This document shows, piece by piece, positions 1-11,727 of a stretch of 32,193 nt of DNA; position 1 is the first letter of the stretch; the number at the start of each line of letters is the position of its first letter. Under the pieces are notes generated by a model. The model was not told the DNA's origin. It did not search any database and saw only the letters and a list, made by a program, of their open reading frames with translations. The stretch is taken from contig NZ_NKTX01000028.1 of assembly GCF_003207815.1 (NCBI RefSeq), positions 1 to 32,193 on the forward strand. The letters run 5' to 3'. Source of the stretch: Komagataeibacter oboediens. Its GTDB lineage: Bacteria > Pseudomonadota > Alphaproteobacteria > Acetobacterales > Acetobacteraceae. The position numbers and the translations under genes are program-made.

Positions 1-781
1 TCGCAGGTAGTACCGCGTCCCTATCTCTTAAATCGCTCATGCTTCATAGCTGAACAAGACCAGAAGTATTCAGCAAGGCGTCAGTCGCCGGGAGCTTACG
101 ACCATAGGTAGGGTCACACATCTTGTCGATCCGATTTCTGTCTTGTTCGGCCTCAAATGGCCCGACTTGGCCCGAAGGAAAGAAACAGCCTGTCCGGGCC
201 GTTTAGGGCCATCGCGGGCCGAGTTGGAACAAATCTGGACTGGCAAGATATGTTGCCCCATACGGGGCACCGGCCTGACTTGCATTCCATGCTCGACGTT
301 GATGCGGGTGATCTGCTGGTGCGCCGCAATGTTTCGTGACCTATGAAGGGTTGACGGATATCTCTCTGATCGCAATGTATGGGGGGTCCGGTGAGGTGAG
401 AACGGCTACCTCACGCACCTGCTAGCCGCAGGTAACTAATCTGGCACCTCTTATGCGGCAGAGAGGGCCGGCCCAAGAGATCGGGGATTGCGTCCCGCCC
501 GGATACCATCCAGCGTCCAGCCAATGACCATTGTCACAAAGGCATACTGGTTGCGATGCAAGGGCATAGTGGCGGAAAGCCTTCGCCGCGTTTGTTTGCG
601 ATATACAAGAATGATGGCGGCTTTGCTCAACCGGGAGCGGGCAGCGATATCTGTCAGGCAACCAGAGGATGAGGTTCAGCATGCTCGACCTTGGTGTCAG
701 CGCGGCGAACATTGACTATGACGGTTTCAATCATATTGGTCAGGCTGTCCACCTCCTGAACCTTGCTGGTTTTTTTTGACC

Positions 782-810
782 TTGAAACCTTACGTTCATA
801 GAGTTATATA
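782..810 (+). promoter_or_regulatory. Candidate sigma-70 promoter, orphan
   Basis: TTGAAA at 782-787 and TATATA at 805-810 are separated by 17 bases, a near-ideal vegetative promoter. An overlapping TTGACC lies at 776-781. No plus-strand gene follows, because the next genes are on the minus strand, so this may be left over from a gene disrupted or removed when the region was rearranged, or may drive a short RNA ending at the hairpin 849-876. Confidence 0.35.
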
Positions 811-848
811 GACCTTGTCTCACCTGCCATGTGTAGGCAGAGCATTCG

Positions 849-876
849 AAGCCGTCCAAGGAAACTTGGGCGGCTT
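849..876. terminator. Hairpin terminator at the end of the cargo operon
   Basis: A 12-bp stem (AAGCCGTCCAAG with CTTGGGCGGCTT, one G-T pair) closes a GAAA loop. It lies 9 bases beyond the stop codon of the leftward operon. On the plus strand a run of five T follows a few bases later, so it could also stop transcription from the 782-810 promoter. Direction is therefore uncertain; it may be bidirectional. Confidence 0.6.
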
Positions 877-885
877 CAGTCGTTT

Positions 886-1353
886 TTAGGGGTTAGAAGC
901 TAGAAAGGCGTCGCGTTCTTTTGTGAGTTGTGCAATGCGCCCTCTTTTCTCTGTGCAATACGCTGTTTTCAATAAATAGTAACCGTTACGATGTGAGAGA
1001 ACCACTAGGTATTCTGTACGAAACCAGAGTAGCGTATTGGTCGCAGTGCCGCGTTGATTCTCCCAGATATCGATTTCGGGATTAGTTTCCGCATTTTCGA
1101 TTACCCAACGTATCCAGCGAATTCGCTCACATCTACGTAGATCAGGCGTACGTTCGGTTTCTATCTGGCCTTCCTGTATCAGATGCCAAAAGGCAGCCCA
1201 TCGGTTGTCAGTTTCTGGGAGACGGCGGCAACTTACTGAATTCCCGCGAAAGGTGAGGCCACCTTGCGCAATTTCAGTAATAAAGACCCGGTTCAGTTCG
1301 CTTTCATAAGCTGACCAGTCACTACAGAACCTGATTAGTTCAGGCGGCTTCAT
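886..1353 (-). CDS. PBECR-like (Barnase/EndoU/ColicinE5/RelE-fold) nuclease-like protein
   Basis: A 155-residue soluble protein. Its central block (AFWHLIQEG, then RTPDLRRCERIRWIRWVIEN, then WENQRG, then YYLLKTAYC) matches what I remember of a mobile-element family annotated as phage P1-related proteins or phage BECR-type nucleases. Those are proposed metal-independent RNases. Basic and aromatic residues (RRCERIRW, HRNGYY) are plausible active-site elements, but I cannot assign catalytic residues. I chose the ATG at 1353 because it overlaps the DUF3800 stop by ATGA and has GGGAG upstream; a longer frame starts at 1419. The overlap implies translational coupling to the DUF3800 gene. It is the last gene of the leftward cargo operon. 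The family assignment is from memory and moderately sure; toxicity or a defence role is inference. Confidence 0.6.
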   Translation of the reverse strand: MKPPELIRFCSDWSAYESELNRVFITEIAQGGLTFRGNSVSCRRLPETDNRWAAFWHLIQEGQIETERTPDLRRCERIRWIRWVIENAETNPEIDIWENQRGTATNTLLWFRTEYLVVLSHRNGYYLLKTAYCTEKRGRIAQLTKERDAFLASNP

Positions 1354-2069
1354 TCCGCCATCTCCCGTGCTCGCCAGACAAGAATATTGAATTTTGTCGC
1401 CGAAAAGGAGGAGGTGCAATTTAAAGCATTTGTTCCTAACCGCGTTTGGATTTTTGTGACGATGGCTGATTTGGCTTGACTAGTCTTGAGGCCACGATTG
1501 GCATACGTCAATGCGCCAATCAAAATATCAGTAATCTGCAGCAACTCGCTCTCGTGGCTACGAATTTGTTGTACACGCTGAATAGTCTGTTGATTAAAAT
1601 CGTGAAGGGTATTGGCTAGTACTTCATGTAGTTTACGGGTTTTAGGACCACCACATGTGTCCTTTATGTCTAGATAGATGCAATATCGATGCTGTGCGCA
1701 AAAGATATGGCGCAACATGACAAAATACATCTTGTAGTACCAGTCATTGTGGGATTGGTCGAAGCGTGAGTGATCTAAAACTTGCTTGTCAGGGACAACG
1801 AGCCCACGAAAATTTAGACAGTCCTCGGAGAGGAAAAGGTCAATTAAACCTAAATAGAAAGATAGTTTTGCCGGTGAAATTTTAGTCCATTTTGCTTCAA
1901 ATTTTGTGCTTAGTCCATGTGACATTTTCAATGTGCGAATTTTTTCTGCAACGTTCCGGACTGCGCTTTTAGGGCATGTTATTGCCCCCCAAGCCATGAC
2001 TGGTACGCCATCATGCTCAAGATGACAGCTTTCGTCGCAATAGACATTGTAAAGAGGTATGTGAGTCAT
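1350..2069 (-). CDS. DUF3800 domain protein
   Basis: A 239-residue protein. It opens with NVYCDESCHLEHD, the acidic DES motif typical of DUF3800, a family with a predicted RNase H-like fold often found in phages, defence islands and mobile elements. A second acidic group, IYLDIKDTCGG (about residues 135-145), and a later conserved block, LLQITDILIGAL (about 180-190), with its Asp also fit. I chose ATG 2069 because GAGGAAAG lies 8-10 bases upstream; the open frame runs further up to 2252 but that part is unlike the family. It is the third gene of the leftward operon, 88 bases after the small membrane protein and overlapping the PBECR-like gene by 4 bases. Biochemical function is not established; a nuclease role in defence is inference. 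Confidence 0.8.
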   Translation of the reverse strand: MTHIPLYNVYCDESCHLEHDGVPVMAWGAITCPKSAVRNVAEKIRTLKMSHGLSTKFEAKWTKISPAKLSFYLGLIDLFLSEDCLNFRGLVVPDKQVLDHSRFDQSHNDWYYKMYFVMLRHIFCAQHRYCIYLDIKDTCGGPKTRKLHEVLANTLHDFNQQTIQRVQQIRSHESELLQITDILIGALTYANRGLKTSQAKSAIVTKIQTRLGTNALNCTSSFSATKFNILVWRAREMAE

Positions 2070-2157
2070 TCTGCGTCTTTCCTCAACCGCACCCCAGCCC
2101 CACCACCATTCTCCGCGATGAACTCGACCCCGGCCCTCCACCATTCCCTGCAGGGTA

Positions 2158-2415
2158 TTAATGGAATGCCCCAAGCAGCATGGCCACAATAGCCCCGATG
2201 ACCACCCATCCAAGAAGACCATTCCACAGTTTGTTTTTGCGGTAATAAACACGGTTGTAGGCGGCTTTCCTTGGATTGGTCAGCCACCCCCAACCGCGCG
2301 GGGCCTTAAAGCCGAGATTGTGCTTTATATAGCGTTTGTAGGATGTCCTTGCCGCAATCTTCTTTCTCAGGCTGGGAAGCCGTGGCCCAAAGCCCATTCC
2401 TCTTTTACGTGCCAT
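2158..2415 (-). CDS. Small basic protein with C-terminal membrane segment
   Basis: An 85-residue protein. The first 60 residues are rich in Lys, Arg and Tyr (KRYIKHN, KAAYNRVYYRKN) and contain GWLTNPRKAAYN, a motif I recall from small hypothetical proteins in mobile elements. The last about 20 residues (LLGWVVIGAIVAMLLGAF) form one membrane helix, so it is a tail-anchored type membrane protein with a positively charged cytoplasmic part. AGGAAGG lies 10 bases before ATG 2415. It sits 30 bases after the HsdR-N-like gene. In defence systems such small membrane proteins can be effectors, but here that is only a guess from context. Confidence 0.6.
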   Translation of the reverse strand: MARKRGMGFGPRLPSLRKKIAARTSYKRYIKHNLGFKAPRGWGWLTNPRKAAYNRVYYRKNKLWNGLLGWVVIGAIVAMLLGAFH

Positions 2416-2445
2416 CGCAGGAATGCCTTCCTGAGTTCGACACCA

Positions 2446-3588
2446 CTACGCGTCAACCTTGGATCGCTTTCCTTTTGCCCCCATGGCTTCAACGCGGGCT
2501 TTAAACACACTGAGAAGCTGATTGTCTATGCCGCCCAGTTCATCTGATTCAAACTCCCCCCCAAATTCTTCACCGAAGTCGAACGTATATTTGACCCCCT
2601 TATCCTCATAAAAATCGAACAGACGTCCAGCCCGCTCCTTTCGGTAGAATACTACAAACTTTCCTTTGTAATCTTTATATTCAATACTGGTTATAGCATC
2701 GAATAATTCGTCACTATCTGCCAAGAACGCGAGTCGCCGTTTGGCATACTCATAAACTTCCAACTCGGTTTCTGTCGTGATGATACCATCTGTGGGTTTT
2801 GCATCGGGATCTACCTTCGGGACATCGGCAACCAGAACCGGCTTGTCAGCTTCCTTGTCCTTTACTGGGAGGTCTAGTCTTTGGAGAATGCGAAGGTTCA
2901 CGAATTCAGCGAAGGCGCTTTTTGTCAGGTCCGTATATTCGGCGACTGCCTTGGCGCGAATATGCTTGAGGCCAATATTTTGCAGCAAAAGGCGCACAAA
3001 CGCCTCACTGGGTGATGCTGCAAGATCCTCGATCTGCTGAACAAGATTTTGGAAAACCAGCTTGCGTTTGGCTTCTGCCCCGATATTTTCAGGATCGAAG
3101 TTGGACTTTTGAAGACTTTTCAATCCGTCAACAACGGAGTCCTCAATCTTCCCTTTTGCAATCTCCCGAAGGTCAAATGATAGAAAGGCGGTCGGGTCCA
3201 TCATATTTGGCTCATCTGAGTCTGCATAGAACTCATAAACTAGGCCATCAGTGATAACGCCCATTTTTACTGTGTGGGCTGCATTAAAATATGACTTTAA
3301 CTGTCCTCGGTCATCTTTTAGTGGCGCACCTAGTGCCTTGCACTCGATTGCAATTACCGGCTGTCCTTCACGAAGGACAGCATAGTCCACTCTATTTTTG
3401 TATTTTTCTGAAAAATCTGCGTGATGTTCCGGGCATACTTCGTCAGGATTCATGATGTCATATCCCAAGAACTGCAAAAATGGCAGAACAAGGAACATTT
3501 TTGTGGCTTCTTCATTGCTACAACGCGGAGCAAGACCAACCATGCGTTCTGAAAATGCTTTAAACTTTTGTCGAAAATCGTCTGACAT
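2446..3588 (-). CDS. Stand-alone HsdR N-terminal-type restriction nuclease
   Basis: A 380-residue protein resembling the type I restriction enzyme R-subunit N-terminal (HsdR_N) nuclease domain without the helicase motor. The PD-(D/E)xK core is intact: NEEATK near residue 26, Asp68 in RVDYA, and Glu82-x-Lys84 in IECKA. Typical HsdR N-terminal features follow (DRGQLKSYF; GVITDG; YEFYAD). The C-terminal part (about 270-380) is an acidic separate domain I do not recognise. AAGAGA precedes ATG 3588. No hsdM or hsdS gene is nearby, so it is not a classical type I system; such solitary proteins occur in prophages and islands. It is the first gene of the leftward operon. Its base composition is AT-richer than the primase region, suggesting separate acquisition. 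A defence function is inferred. Confidence 0.8.
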   Translation of the reverse strand: MSDDFRQKFKAFSERMVGLAPRCSNEEATKMFLVLPFLQFLGYDIMNPDEVCPEHHADFSEKYKNRVDYAVLREGQPVIAIECKALGAPLKDDRGQLKSYFNAAHTVKMGVITDGLVYEFYADSDEPNMMDPTAFLSFDLREIAKGKIEDSVVDGLKSLQKSNFDPENIGAEAKRKLVFQNLVQQIEDLAASPSEAFVRLLLQNIGLKHIRAKAVAEYTDLTKSAFAEFVNLRILQRLDLPVKDKEADKPVLVADVPKVDPDAKPTDGIITTETELEVYEYAKRRLAFLADSDELFDAITSIEYKDYKGKFVVFYRKERAGRLFDFYEDKGVKYTFDFGEEFGGEFESDELGGIDNQLLSVFKARVEAMGAKGKRSKVDA

Positions 3589-3599
3589 ATTCGTCTCTC

Positions 3600-3614
3600 T
3601 TAGAAATTTTCTAA
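3600..3614. promoter_or_regulatory. Perfect 15-bp palindrome upstream of the nuclease operon
   Basis: TTAGAAATTTTCTAA (7+1+7) lies 12-26 bases upstream of the ATG at 3588, within an AT-rich spacer (3589-3724) that must hold the operon promoter. Its symmetry and place suit an operator. No cognate regulator can be named; it differs from the RHH-site sequence at 3890 and 3922. Confidence 0.45.
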
Positions 3615-3724
3615 AAGTTACGAATTAAGGCAATTCTATGGAAATCTTTTCAGAAAATTACAGATATACGGTTTTTAAATAATATTTCCACACGCATTGA
3701 ATCAAACGGGAAATTTGTTCGATT

Positions 3725-3916
3725 TTACTTTTTATCCGCCTCAAGCCCTTTCGCAATTAGGCGGCGGATGGCTTCTGCACGGGTGATGCCGTGACTGGCT
3801 GCCCATGCATCAATCAACCTCATTTCTTCATCGGTGACGCGAGCAGCTACATGAGATCGTTCGCCTGTTTTAGGCCGACCTCTGTTTTTTTGGTTACCAG
3901 TTATTGACGCTTTCAT
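3725..3916 (-). CDS. Ribbon-helix-helix transcriptional regulator
   Basis: A 63-residue basic protein. After a positively charged N-terminal stretch (GRPKTGERS), VAARVTDEEMRLIDAWAAS gives the RHH beta strand and first helix, and GITRAEAIRRLIAKGL gives the second helix, as in CopG/Arc-type repressors. These bind DNA as dimers to short inverted sites. It faces left, divergent from the small-gene operon at 4001. Two matching inverted sites (3890-3900, inside its own 5' end, and 3922-3932, just before its start) point to autoregulation and control of the rightward operon. No Shine-Dalgarno is evident; one operator occupies that position. It could also be an antitoxin, but no toxin partner is adjacent. 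Confidence 0.8.
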   Translation of the reverse strand: MKASITGNQKNRGRPKTGERSHVAARVTDEEMRLIDAWAASHGITRAEAIRRLIAKGLEADKK

Positions 3917-3932
3917 TTTTATTGGTTACCAA
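3890..3932. promoter_or_regulatory. Paired operators between divergent transcription units
   Basis: TTGGTTACCAA, an 11-base perfect inverted repeat with a central T, lies at 3922-3932, and TTGGTTACCAG at 3890-3900. Their spacing of 32 bases is about three helical turns, so both would face the same side of the DNA. A weak rightward promoter, TTGACG at 3904-3909 with a poor -10 at 3927-3932, would have its -10 inside the second site. This arrangement fits cooperative repression by the RHH protein encoded alongside. Confidence 0.6.
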
Positions 3933-4000
3933 AAATGCAGGCCGGAAGGAAGCGGCAACTTCCAACCGGCCTTAACCACAACCGAACCGGAGTTTCGGCA

Positions 4001-4252
4001 ATGGCTAATCGTGCCTATAGCACGCCCAGACACACATGGGCATGCCCCCGGCTGGGTACAAGCATACTCGGCTTCCTTTTTCCCAAAGCTGGGAAAAACC
4101 CCTTAATCACATCCGAGCATCTGGCAGCAGGGCTGATCGTCCCCGCGCTGCTCCTGCTCGCCCTGGCCGGGTTCGCTCAGCCGGAGGTTCTGCGTCACGG
4201 CGGCGCAAAACCCCATCCCACAATGACCGCATTGGCGGAGGTGGCCCGATGA
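4001..4252 (+). CDS. Small predicted membrane protein, first gene of the early operon
   Basis: An 83-residue frame I do not recognise. It has one hydrophobic segment, LAAGLIVPALLLLALAGFA, at about residues 45-63. ATG 4001 has GGAG 8 bases upstream; the frame stays open to an ATG at 3935 that overlaps the operator area and looks less likely. Its stop overlaps the next gene by ATGA, which is the main reason to believe it. The N-terminal half has a chance-like composition, so it may be shorter or not translated. Confidence 0.4.
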   Translation: MANRAYSTPRHTWACPRLGTSILGFLFPKAGKNPLITSEHLAAGLIVPALLLLALAGFAQPEVLRHGGAKPHPTMTALAEVAR

Positions 4253-6894: not shown

Positions 6895-7242
6895 ATGGCA
6901 GAAACACATGCACACCCGGACTCCGTACACACGAATCCGGGGGGTAAGATAGACTTCCAGGCCGTCAACAGCGCAGCCCTTGGCGTGTTGACGGCCCTCC
7001 TCCTGCGCTGGCTGCCAGATGGCAGGCGTGAGGGGCACGAATGGGTATCGCGCAACCCGCGCCGGGGCGACCGTAACCCCGGCTCGTTCAAGGTGAACAT
7101 GAATACGGGTCGATGGTCTGATTTCGCTACGGGCGACCGGGGCGGCGATCCCGTATCCCTTGCGGCCTATCTGTTTGGGCTGTCCCAGCTTGAGGCGGCA
7201 CGGCAGTTATCCCTTATGCTTGGCGTGGAGGTGCAGCCATGA
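6895..7242 (+). CDS. Split primase N-terminal-like protein, Cys-less
   Basis: A 115-residue protein. Residues about 45-95 (GHEWVSRNPRRGDRNPGSFKVN ... GRWSDFATGDRGGDPVSLAAYL) align by pattern with the primase zinc-binding domain, in which nucleotides of the template are recognised, but the CHC2 cysteines and histidine are absent. In many mobile elements this module sits immediately before a TOPRIM/DUF927 protein, as here: its stop overlaps the next start by ATGA. It may help the downstream protein select primer sites. The absence of metal ligands is directly visible; the function is inferred from family and context. Confidence 0.65.
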   Translation: MAETHAHPDSVHTNPGGKIDFQAVNSAALGVLTALLLRWLPDGRREGHEWVSRNPRRGDRNPGSFKVNMNTGRWSDFATGDRGGDPVSLAAYLFGLSQLEAARQLSLMLGVEVQP

Positions 7243-9779
7243 CCGGCATTACCTCCGAAGCCAGCAGCCTTCCCGCAATGGCGTGCCTGTCTGGTGCGGC
7301 TCCGCTTGCGCCCCTGACAGATGAGGAAAAGGCGAAAGCCCAGACCATTGGTGGTGTGACTGGCGAACAGTGGGAGCCGATCACCCCCGCCCCCTGTGAA
7401 CCTGAATTGCCGCGTGGTGCATCATTCCTATGGGTTTACCGGGATGCGGAGGGCCGCCCCCTCTGTGCCCGGTTCCGCAAGGAACGCGAGGACGGCGGCA
7501 AGGATATTCTGCCCCTGTCCTATGGCCGCCGTGTGTGGACGGACAGTAAGGGCAACCGTCATGACGGCACCGGCTGGCACTGGAAGCAGGGACGCAAGCC
7601 GCTGCCGCTTTATGGACTGGATCAGTTGGCGGCCTTCCCTGACGTGCCCGTGCTGCTGGTGGAAGGCGAAAAGACGGCGGACGCGGCAGCCCGTCTGTTC
7701 CCTGATTATGTGGTCATGACCTCCCAGGGTGGCAGCAAGGCGGCAGCCAATAATGACTGGTCACCTCTGGCGGGACGTAGCGTGACCATCTGGCCGGATA
7801 ATGACGACGCTGGCAGCGGGTATGCTGATGCGGTCATTGCCGCCCTTGAGGATGCCGGGGCTGCGGTGGTGCGTACGGTGGCGGTCCCAGACAACCTGCC
7901 TCCCGGTTGGGATTTGGCCGATGATGTGCCGCTTGACCTGACAGGAGGAGAAGACACCTCCGATGTGGACTTCCTGCGCCCCTATCTGGATCAGGCCACG
8001 CCAGCCGTCGCAAACGTCAGGATGCCGCACGGTTACAGCATGGAGCGCGGGGGGCTGTATTTCACCGAGGAACAGGGTGGCGACCTGCCCCCGAAGAAGT
8101 TTTGGATATGCATCCCCTTCAACGTGATTGCCGAAACGCGGGACGTGGATGGCAACGGATGGGGCGTCCTGATTAGCTGGCTGGACCCGGACGGAAGGCC
8201 CCACCAATGGGCATTACCAAGGCGCATGGTGCATGGGGACGGCAAGGACATTGCCGGTGAACTTGAGGATGCGGGTTTCGGGTGCGCCGTCTCTGGGACG
8301 CGATTCCTTCGCCAGTTCTTTTCCTCCGTCCATACCGTGCGCCGCCTGCGCTGTGTCGATAAGTCGGGGTGGTATCATGACAATGGCAACGCCACCTTTG
8401 TCCTGCCCAATGGGGTGACGGTTGGCGCGGGGCGGCGTGATGTGGTGTTCCAGACAACCCGCATGGCACGGGGCGCGGAATACGGGACAGGCGGGACGTT
8501 GACGGACTGGCAGCGCGATATTGCCGCCTATGCCGTAGGCAACAGCCGCCTTGCCTTTTCCCTGTCTGTTGCCTTCTGTGGCCCCCTGCTTGACCTGATG
8601 GGCGAACAGTCCGGTGGGTTCCACATCGTGGGCAAGAGCCAGTCCGGCAAGTCCACATCCCTGTTCGCGGCGGGTTCGGTCTGGGGCAAGGGCGACCGTG
8701 ACGGGCAGGTGCGTTCATGGCGCGGTACGTCCAACGGGACGGAGGGCATCGCGTCCGAGACCTCCGACACCCTGCTTGTTCTCGATGAGATGGGGCAGGC
8801 CAACAGCCGCGAAGTCGGTGAAATCACCTATATGCTGGCGAACAACAGCGGCAAGCAGCGTGCCGGGCGCAATGGCGAAGCCCGTGCCCGCAAGAGTTGG
8901 CGCGTGCTGTTCCTGTCCACCGGCGAAATCACGCTGGCAACCAAGATGGGGGAGGCCGGACAGCGCCCGATGGCAGGGCAGGAGGTTCGCCTTGTGAACG
9001 TGCAGGCCGATGCCGGGGCTGGGATGGGCCTGTTTGAAAACCTGCATGACATGGCCTCACCGGGCGACCTTGCCGATCATATCCGCCGTGCGGCCCGGAC
9101 AAGCTACGGCACCGCAAGCCGTGCCTGGTTGCAGGCCCTTGTGATGGATCGCAATGAGGATGAGGCTGCCCTTACCGATACCATCAAGCAGATCGTGGCA
9201 CGGTTTGAGGAACAGGCATTGCCTGATGCTGCCCCTGTCGATGGGCAGGTGCGCTCCGTGGTGCGACGGTTTGGACTGGTGGCTGCTGCGGGTGAAATGG
9301 CAACTGCGTATGGCGTCCTTCCGTGGCAGCGCGGGGAGGCCACGCGGGCGGCTCTGGTGTGCTTCCGTTCATGGCTGGATGATCGTGGCGGCACCCAGGC
9401 AGCGGAGGACAGGACCGCAATCGAACAGGTCCGCCTTTTCATTGAGGAACACGGAGAGAGCCGCTTTACCCTGCTGGGTGGTCTCGATGGTGATGGCGAT
9501 GACAGCCGCTCCCGCACGATCAATCGCGCCGGATACCGCCGTAAGGTGACAACAGAGGGCGGTGCGGAGAAATGGGAATACCTGATCTTCCCCGCCGTGT
9601 GGCGTGAGGTCGTGTGTAAGGGACTGGATGCTAGGCGGGCCGCGCAAAGCCTTATCGCTGCCGGGTATCTCAATTCGGGCGGGGGAGGGAGTCCGACCTC
9701 CGTCATCAAAGACCCAGAAAAAGAAAAGGCAGCGCGTTTCTATGTCGTGAATGGCGAAATTGTGGACGGAGGTAACTGA
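7239..9779 (+). CDS. TOPRIM primase / DUF927 helicase-like replication protein
   Basis: An 846-residue protein, the largest gene of the element. The N-terminal part has a TOPRIM-like nucleotidyl-transfer core: VLLVEGEKTAD (catalytic Glu near residue 140), then WPDNDDAG about 45 residues later (the metal-binding DxD). The central and C-terminal part matches DUF927, a P-loop helicase-like family of phage and plasmid replication proteins: Walker A GKSQSGKST near residue 464 and Walker B LLVLDEMGQ near 513, preceded by RSWRGTSNG. The C-terminal about 200 residues are typical for the family. It is translationally coupled to the Cys-less primase module. It likely primes and unwinds element DNA. No capsid or packaging genes accompany it. 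Confidence 0.85.
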   Translation: MTGITSEASSLPAMACLSGAAPLAPLTDEEKAKAQTIGGVTGEQWEPITPAPCEPELPRGASFLWVYRDAEGRPLCARFRKEREDGGKDILPLSYGRRVWTDSKGNRHDGTGWHWKQGRKPLPLYGLDQLAAFPDVPVLLVEGEKTADAAARLFPDYVVMTSQGGSKAAANNDWSPLAGRSVTIWPDNDDAGSGYADAVIAALEDAGAAVVRTVAVPDNLPPGWDLADDVPLDLTGGEDTSDVDFLRPYLDQATPAVANVRMPHGYSMERGGLYFTEEQGGDLPPKKFWICIPFNVIAETRDVDGNGWGVLISWLDPDGRPHQWALPRRMVHGDGKDIAGELEDAGFGCAVSGTRFLRQFFSSVHTVRRLRCVDKSGWYHDNGNATFVLPNGVTVGAGRRDVVFQTTRMARGAEYGTGGTLTDWQRDIAAYAVGNSRLAFSLSVAFCGPLLDLMGEQSGGFHIVGKSQSGKSTSLFAAGSVWGKGDRDGQVRSWRGTSNGTEGIASETSDTLLVLDEMGQANSREVGEITYMLANNSGKQRAGRNGEARARKSWRVLFLSTGEITLATKMGEAGQRPMAGQEVRLVNVQADAGAGMGLFENLHDMASPGDLADHIRRAARTSYGTASRAWLQALVMDRNEDEAALTDTIKQIVARFEEQALPDAAPVDGQVRSVVRRFGLVAAAGEMATAYGVLPWQRGEATRAALVCFRSWLDDRGGTQAAEDRTAIEQVRLFIEEHGESRFTLLGGLDGDGDDSRSRTINRAGYRRKVTTEGGAEKWEYLIFPAVWREVVCKGLDARRAAQSLIAAGYLNSGGGGSPTSVIKDPEKEKAARFYVVNGEIVDGGN

Positions 9780-11650: not shown

Positions 11651-11727
11651 TGGCGGACTCGAAAGGATTCGAACCTTCGACCTTCGCCTTCGGAGGGCGA
11701 CGCTCTATCCAGCTGAGCTACGAGTCC
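11651..11727 (-). tRNA. tRNA-Arg (anticodon CCG)
   Basis: On the minus strand the cloverleaf is complete: acceptor GGACTCG/CGAGTCC, D-arm GCTCAGCTGGATAGAGC, anticodon stem TCGCC/GGCGA with loop CTCCGAA (anticodon CCG, reading CGG), and T-arm GGTTCGAATCC. The discriminator G is followed by an encoded CCA (11651-11653). The 3' end faces the mobile element, the usual arrangement when a tRNA 3' end is the integration site. Confidence 0.95.

Follow-up and report, generated by a model that had tools for sequence, protein, structure and literature searches.

Contig NZ_NKTX01000028.1 of Komagataeibacter oboediens (assembly GCF_003207815.1) was analysed over its whole length of 32,193 bases, referred to here as the window. 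Near its left end lie two leftward genes homologous to rlfA and rlfB of bacteriophage P1, whose reading frames overlap by 4 bases, and a predicted small RNA gene that converges on rlfB (Table 1). In this study, we describe the conservation of this trio and report solitary copies of the RNA in phage genomes. RlfA, RlfB and the two-hairpin RNA of about 75 nucleotides (nt) are well supported as a unit. A first-pass annotation, made from the sequence alone, had read rlfA, rlfB and two genes upstream of them as a four-gene, nuclease-rich defence operon. The four leftward open reading frames (ORFs) are present where it placed them and the stretch is AT-richer, with a GC content of 0.44-0.50 in windows 1001 to 4000 as against about 0.62 on average farther right; the small RNA gene was absent from that reading.

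Table 1. Coordinates of the features discussed (positions in the window unless another locus is named)
Feature	Position	Strand	Remarks
Small RNA gene	817-891	+	convergent with rlfB; covariance model 69.0 bits (own row in the training set)
Sigma-70-like promoter of small RNA	782-810	+	TTGAAA 782-787, 17 bases, TATATA 805-810; consensus match only
RNA hairpin 1	819-842		
RNA hairpin 2/terminator stem	848-877		
T-run of RNA	883-887		
rlfB homologue (PADLOC PDC-M04B), 155 amino acids	886-1353	-	PADLOC E 2.4e-54; PHROG 16230 E 3e-31
rlfA homologue, DUF3800 (PADLOC PDC-M04A), 239 amino acids	1350-2069	-	Pfam DUF3800 E 2.6e-12; PADLOC E 2.7e-89
85-amino-acid protein	2158-2415	-	no Pfam match
HsdR-N (PD-(D/E)xK) endonuclease-like protein, 380 amino acids	2446-3588	-	Pfam HSDR_N E 2e-13; PHROG 4225 'endonuclease'
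Ribbon-helix-helix (RHH) protein, 63 amino acids	3725-3916	-	upstream; Pfam RHH_1
Primase-like DUF927 protein	7239-9779		inside left-end element
tRNA-Arg	11651-11727		
phi3T-like RNA array, locus L187	440-860		second rlfAB-type hairpin in between
phi3T-like RNA array, locus L254 (phi3T)	2999-3185		

The DUF3800 protein of the window was 47.6% identical to P1 RlfA and matched 12 records of the phage collection, those of P1 and P7 included, and the protein encoded after it was about 38% identical to P1 RlfB. In P1 and P7 the genes, named rlfA/rlfB or rapA/rapB, are adjacent and located downstream of repL. The P1 record describes them as 'possibly associated with lytic replication' without naming an experiment, and its annotation places a C1 repressor operator upstream of rlfA, the genes coming after repL/oriL. 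The first-pass annotation knew of no named system with its gene order, but the pair of DUF3800 and 'PBECR' genes within it corresponds to rlfA/rlfB of P1 and to the PADLOC entry PDC-M04A/B. No paper was found under the name PDC-M04, and no phage phenotype for rlfAB was found in the literature searched, which excludes most subscription papers.

A scan for close relatives in 84,980 species genomes yielded 41 RlfA loci, distributed over bacteria of several phyla. RlfB adjoins RlfA in 37 of these loci by tblastn and in 38 by a hidden Markov model (HMM) built from those; the loci that supplied the RlfB and RlfA HMMs were afterwards scanned with them, together with new loci. RlfB is missing from three loci: the contig of L050 stops within rlfA, and L049 and L052 are broken. 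A close-relative search of viral contigs with the RlfB query gave no relatives.

The AlphaFold model of RlfA (predicted local distance difference test, pLDDT, 89.3) gave RNase HII as the best Foldseek match (E 6.6e-6), with 16 matches at E ≤0.001, and a table in a 2013 survey likewise lists RlfA with the RNase H fold (PMC3710099). The columns invariant over 39 aligned rows include D12, E13, E58, D134 and D181. By its modelled structure RlfA is a putative nuclease of RNase H2-like fold with intact acidic residues. The model of RlfB (pLDDT 94.2) had no match in PDB at E ≤0.001; among the weak fold matches the RelE-type toxins HigB, BrnT, HP0894 and Cami1 recurred at E 0.9-2.1. Its invariant residues over 40 rows are F55, H57, R74 and T130. 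RlfB is perhaps an RNase or RNA-binding subunit, possibly of RelE/BECR type. The earlier PBECR label for this protein thus finds an echo in the RelE-type matches, but not in Pfam, where the protein had no match, nor in any significant fold match. Sequence searches of PDB with the RlfA and RlfB profiles gave no meaningful match.

A conserved two-hairpin RNA element beside rlfAB

The block of DNA similarity that covers rlfAB runs beyond the stop codon of rlfB, and the motif found there recurs across loci of several phyla. It is composed of promoter-like hexamers, a hairpin of the form CUCA-stem-loop-stem-GAG, a short linker, a second hairpin and a T-run; in the window the 3' end of the RNA overlaps the rlfB stop codon (886-888). 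An alignment of 43 distinct rows from 44 sites was prepared, omitting the near-copies L004, L005, L020, L022, L030 and L051 as well as L011. The motif finder required a stem of at least 4 pairs, and L006 and L012 were added after reading of their sequences.

Changes on both sides of the pair were observed at 15 of the 20 consensus pairs over the 43 rows. Paired cells amounted to 95.7%, compared with 80.0% after shuffling, and covariation was 0.485, as against 0.210 in shuffled and 0.069-0.158 in slid alignments. Hairpin 1 had zero unpaired cells, which is partly by construction because the finder demanded a stem; the kinds of compensatory change are not affected by this. Single-sequence folding strongly surpassed shuffled sequences in 7 of 8 RNAs (z-scores -3.3 to -6.8), the eighth, L012, having a z of -2.38. 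The RNA of the window folded better than all 200 of its shuffles (z -5.02).

The promoter of the window RNA matches the consensus at 9 of 12 positions and ends 8 bases ahead of the conserved CTCA. At least 9/12 matches were present in 37 of 44 rlfAB RNAs, with a mean of 9.8 compared with 6.7 for shuffled sequences, and in 15 of 18 viral rlfAB RNAs. The RNA is directed against rlfAB in 30 of 43 loci and runs with rlfAB in the other 13, the window not being counted. Antisense pairing to rlfB was ruled out, as the orientation varies between loci; mimicry of a Shine-Dalgarno sequence by AAGGAG was also ruled out, P1 having AAAGAG and the window GCAGAG at this place. Rfam gave no match at the rlfAB RNA, either in the window (1-4200, E up to 1), in 13 loci at the gathering threshold or in 8 loci at E up to 5, and a description of the RNA was not found in the literature searched.

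A covariance model of the element detected the RNA in 50 of 51 RlfA-bearing sources, P1 included, with scores of 29.9 to 83.2 bits. The sole RlfA source without it was the cut contig L050, and no match at E up to 1 was obtained in 35 sources without RlfA. Forty-three of the 50 positive sources are training rows, among them P1 and P7 (67.5 and 70.6 bits), and 6 are near-copies of training rows. Two finds belong to neither group: L011 (47.7 bits) and, from a later search, L090 (40.4 bits). L089 has the same RNA as the training locus L018, on a contig of equal length, and was not counted as new. Each rlfAB locus had a single match above 17 bits, and the genome to which the window belongs had one strong site, the next best match scoring 23.5 bits. 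Among the 51 sources every complete rlfAB locus has the RNA, and both broken loci keep it. The RNA persists without the proteins, while in these 51 sources, where the contig allows, the proteins of this clade do not occur without the RNA, an asymmetry expected of an inhibitor. In the broken loci L049 and L052 rlfA is interrupted and rlfB was not found; L049 retains a full promoter match by eye, and an assembly error is possible in these loci.

RlfA relatives were present in 13 of 299 genomes sampled from the phylum. Ten of them are distant (31-35% identical), and 8 of these 10 have a weak RlfB match. In seven of eight distant loci inspected (L092-L096, L098, L099), a different convergent element follows the RlfB-like gene. 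As judged by eye, this two-hairpin element has a TTGAC-like box that resembles a promoter, a GUUCU...AGAAC hairpin and, with it, a terminator; the seven loci look closely related to one another, and Rfam had no match to the element at E up to 1.

Solitary copies of the RNA in phages

The model gave strong hits (at least 40 bits) in 6 of 299 genomes from the phylum, a sample that seems to be identical with the previous one, and RlfA was found in 3 of the 6. The other three copies lie in two chromosome stretches, one on a contig that ends about 400 nt past the RNA, and in one prophage; neither RlfA nor RlfB had a match in these three genome stretches. ORFs of L113-L115, and of L270 and L271 described below, were read by eye. 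In the prophage (L115, 7931-7996, genome G238) the RNA adjoins a small-terminase-like gene. Thirteen further genomes had weak hits only (22-29 bits), which are probably due to chance.

The viral collection was searched using two strict 24-base hairpin patterns, for which less than one chance match is expected by our own estimate, the base count of the collection not being stated. At least 120 stretches matched one pattern and 12 the other, giving at least 132 viral stretches with the hairpin. Among the matches listed, 21 carry RlfA and RlfB, 2 carry RlfB alone and 109 show neither; in 85 of these 109 each flank is 600 nt or longer, so that an adjacent rlfB would be visible. The second hairpin, which the patterns did not constrain, is retained in the listed solitary copies, with a mean folding z of -2.83 as against -0.03 to -0.34 in controls, and a z of -2 or lower was reached by 54 of 80 listed solitary copies, compared with 5 of 80 in each control. 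The covariance model matched all 76 solitary loci given to it, 76 of the 109 listed being used after near-copies had been dropped by eye; all scored at least 32.8 bits, to which hairpin 1 contributes by construction. Covariation among the solitary copies was 0.374, compared with 0.136 after shuffling, in an alignment fitted to the model.

Thirty-one of 94 distinct listed solitary copies have a tRNA or transfer-messenger RNA (tmRNA) gene no more than 500 nt away, and 75 of 76 such genes are on the same strand as the RNA. For comparison, 314 of 1,880 positions drawn at random from these loci were equally close to such a gene, and none of 18 viral rlfAB loci was. Annotated phages that carry the RNA with no feature under the match include relatives of phi3T and SPbeta and the Vibrio phages 1.084 and 1.121, and the RNA is likewise unannotated in Streptococcus phage Javan423 and Geobacillus phage PT9.1. 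Model scores were 68.7 bits for phi3T, 51.1 for Vibrio phage 1.084, 49.0 for PT9.1 and 40.8 for Javan423. In large phages, ROOL RNAs were also observed in the very tRNA clusters that hold the solitary RNA (L193, 12810-13403; L166, 10510-11086; L156, 2879-3444).

In phi3T-like loci the first element is followed by a second one of the same shape, whose stem is different but self-complementary. Two elements within 400 nt of each other were present in 20 of the 109 listed solitary loci, which represent 9 distinct pairs. The Rfam DUF3800-VIII RNA was located about 120-185 nt from the first element in L187, one of 16 sources. It also followed the solitary RNA in 14 of 20 sources, phi3T included, which had been picked as phi3T-like or short and are partly near-identical. 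DUF3800-VIII was found in none of 13 rlfAB loci and in none of the 23 genomes behind 23 RlfA loci. In a sample of 299 genomes from the phylum to which a Tissierella record belongs, it was present in 8; it adjoins an RlfA-like DUF3800 gene in 6 of these, where about 1.5 kb of surrounding sequence gave no RlfB match, and the remaining 2 loci have neither gene, one of them (L270) lying among prophage-like genes according to the reading of its ORFs. At least one phage group therefore brings together RNAs that in other places go with different DUF3800 nucleases. A decoy array would be expected to have this look, and a shared phage function of such RNAs would have it equally. Rfam DUF3800-I was found in 0 of 299 genomes of the phylum, a result that is uninformative, as the search gave no signal anywhere. 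No literature on DUF3800-VIII was found; the names of the DUF3800 RNAs reportedly go back to a 2017 survey of RNA motifs.

Genes judged to lie outside the unit

Pfam confirmed both the DUF3800 and the HSDR_N domain that the first-pass annotation had recognised, and the five proteins scanned contained, as it had said, no methylase (HsdM) or specificity (HsdS) domain. Its proposal of one module did not fare as well. Co-occurrence was analysed by tblastn over the 41 RlfA genome loci, in stretches of 3-15 kb, and the HsdR-N, 85-amino-acid and RHH genes were present in 0 of 41. The neighbourhood search that had been suggested as a check thus found that the four families rarely co-occur, the outcome named as contradicting a single module. 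The HsdR-N gene was found in 14 of 200 genomes of the family, that of the window included, and RlfA in that one genome only, in a second sample of 200 family genomes that are apparently the same ones. None of the other genes lay within about 1.5 kb of the 13 other HsdR-N genes, some of these contigs being cut by their ends. Relatives of the 85-amino-acid protein occurred in 20 viral loci, with a distant HsdR-N relative in 1 and rlfAB in none. DNA similarity also falls into separate blocks, the closest HsdR-N relative covering 2459-3681 and the rlfAB relatives about 806-2054. The four genes share a strand and are separated by small gaps, as suits a four-gene defence operon, but given these distributions such an operon is scarcely credible. 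We judge that the HsdR-N nuclease and the 85-amino-acid protein are separate arrivals beside rlfAB, so that two unrelated blocks adjoin here, and place them outside the unit because co-occurrence with rlfAB is absent in the loci examined. What survives of the earlier proposal is the idea of a nuclease defence module, since rlfAB is independently a PADLOC defence candidate; its constant partner, however, is an RNA and not a membrane protein or an HsdR-N nuclease.

The 85-amino-acid protein has a C-terminal hydrophobic segment, as read by eye, and PHROG families 3374, 10934, 29766 and 4721 cover residues 7-60 only. Other proteins of phages and plasmids share this N-terminal domain (residues about 7-60), and the matches mostly stop before the C-terminal segment. 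Relatives of the HsdR-N protein were seen in 18 phage and 52 plasmid records, Borreliella plasmids among them. The RHH protein showed no link to rlfAB in the 41 loci.

From about 11.8 kb onward, the window matches ordinary chromosomal genes (hydrolase, DNA polymerase I, solute-binding protein, ABC transporters, fumarase, photolyase). Because of these genes and the tRNA-Arg gene, we place an element at the left end of the contig; no integrase was found among the window ORFs scanned. A match to the Rfam skipping-rope RNA (RF02924) was observed at 386-504 (+). It scored 23.5 bits, below the gathering threshold of 36.7; the E-value was 0.032 when the window was searched and 0.0069 when its own genome was; the consensus stems are present together with a long insert. 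The search that covered the own genome gave matches below the cut-off in 9 of 14 control genomes too.

Possible function and comparison with known systems

The reading that we prefer, and to which we give somewhat less than an even chance, is that RlfAB is an RNA-controlled nuclease with the RNA as its inhibitor, possibly directed against phages, and that the RNA copies of phages are decoys. The steps that we infer, from transcription and binding through inhibition and toxicity to defence and decoy action, would run as follows. The two-hairpin RNA would be made from its own promoter, bind RlfAB and hold the pair inactive, as does the RNA antitoxin of type III toxin-antitoxin systems. Invasion by a phage would disturb the cell and free the nuclease, which would then harm nucleic acid and so stop the infection. 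Phages would keep the solitary RNA as a decoy, whether by itself, within a tRNA cluster or arranged in tandem with a second RNA of DUF3800 type. The listing of the pair as defence candidate PDC-M04 by PADLOC is a hint of a defence role.

Several observations weigh against it. A P1 CRISPR interference (CRISPRi) screen (PMC10695390) lists both rlfA and rlfB as NE, and its table describes them as 'possibly associated with lytic replication'. Because a C1 operator is annotated upstream of rlfA, rlfAB may be turned on by P1 during lytic growth, and this would be odd for a prophage defence gene. The fold match of RlfB is not significant, and the RNA is absent from all 10 distant DUF3800 loci. With respect to structure, the 100% pairing of hairpin 1 was helped by the stem-demanding finder, the best fold of the window RNA shifts hairpin 1 by pairing CUGCC with GGCAG, and the CUC/GAG consensus pairs are missing from the best folds of both the window and the P1 RNA. 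Among the solitary copies, only 13 of 90 listed reach at least 9/12 promoter matches, with a mean of 6.84 compared with 6.52 after shuffling. DUF3800-VIII was found beside the RNA only in phi3T-like loci; 15 of 16 sources were without it, and for 14 further sources, mostly of large phages, it was absent from the 150 rows listed out of 185.

The same observations allow other roles for the RNA. It might be a guide or scaffold, RlfA being an RNA-directed nuclease that is targeted or activated by it; an RNase H-type fold and a constant RNA partner would suit this, and other DUF3800 proteins accompany CRISPR Cas12, where a part in interference or CRISPR RNA handling has been proposed (PMC10910872). 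The aligned RNAs, however, show no variable spacer and their loops are short, and a pure guide leaves unexplained why the RNA persists at sites with a broken rlfAB or none, so that we consider this role rather unlikely. Should RlfAB and the RNA instead serve the propagation of phages and plasmids, in lytic replication or RNA processing, with solitary RNAs doing so alone, then the P1 phrase on lytic replication, the position of the genes after repL/oriL and the proximity of about a third of the distinct listed solitary copies to tRNA or tmRNA genes would be accounted for. Against this unlikely role stand the NE listing of both genes, the missing experiment behind the P1 phrase and the occurrence of the trio on contigs of bacteria of several phyla, where some copies may lie in prophages.

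It is quite improbable that the RNA is a substrate or recognised feature used by phages, which RlfAB senses or cuts to detect infection. Its wide spread among viral contigs in which no rlfAB is detectable, with both hairpins conserved, would agree with such a trigger, but the RNA also stands at the rlfAB loci, in most cases behind a good promoter match, and the trigger would always be present in the cell. Finally, hairpin 2 and the T-run resemble an intrinsic terminator, and the element might be a mere terminator or 3' untranslated structure of the rlfAB mRNA. The opposing direction of the RNA in 30 of 43 loci, its own promoter matches, the invariant sequence and compensatory changes of a hairpin that lies upstream of the terminator, and the existence of solitary copies make this very improbable.

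Extended to known phages, the inhibitor and decoy reading would describe an RNA-controlled nuclease defence present in P1 and several phyla, with solitary and mixed phage RNAs disarming classes of DUF3800 nucleases; we regard this wider proposal as possible rather than probable. If true, a so far unrecognised RNA counter-defence exists in SPbeta/phi3T, in Vibrio phages and in large phages rich in tRNA genes. A gene pair that is known but lacks an explanation, together with an RNA partner that was not found described in Rfam or in the literature searched, becomes a testable RNA-protein system; the RNA supplies a hypothesis of function for a PADLOC candidate, a tie to the DUF3800 RNAs of Rfam and a possible reason why tRNA clusters and phi3T-type phages hold conserved elements without annotation. 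Both Rfam and PMC10910872 already feature DUF3800 genes that have RNAs as neighbours. Few phages are as widely used as P1, yet in its record the site is without an annotated RNA and rlfAB are 'possibly' replication genes.

The closest known relative is the P1 pair rlfA/rlfB (P7 rapA/rapB), which is homologous to the window pair, has the same order, is adjacent and is accompanied by the same RNA. It differs in that the P1 record annotates no RNA there and in that the P1 copy follows repL, with a C1 operator upstream. Both window proteins match the A and B models of PADLOC PDC-M04, and the comparison rests on these protein models; in the window the RlfB-type gene is directly downstream of rlfA, with the 4-base overlap. 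The DUF3800-associated RNAs of Rfam (DUF3800-VIII, RF03075; -I, -IX) resemble the unit as small RNAs beside a DUF3800 gene, but RF03075 is another RNA, and its six DUF3800 loci have no RlfB match within about 1.5 kb. Type I restriction HsdR and solitary HsdR-N proteins resemble the N-terminal nuclease domain of the neighbouring gene, which is unlinked to rlfAB.

Type III toxin-antitoxin systems such as ToxIN, with the pseudo-ToxI of phages, provide an analogy of working, in which a nuclease has an RNA partner and phages have RNA mimics. The RNA antitoxin of type III systems consists of tandem repeats inside the toxin operon, whereas the RNA described here is single and two-hairpin, with a predicted promoter of its own, convergent with rlfAB in 30 of 43 loci and with no repeat array; no ToxN-type match was found in Pfam or NCBIfam. 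The nearest precedent in kind is phage PhiTE, whose pseudo-ToxI repeats defeat ToxIN (PMC3475682). If the decoy reading is true, this precedent of ToxI mimics would widen to a large and mixed RNA counter-defence.

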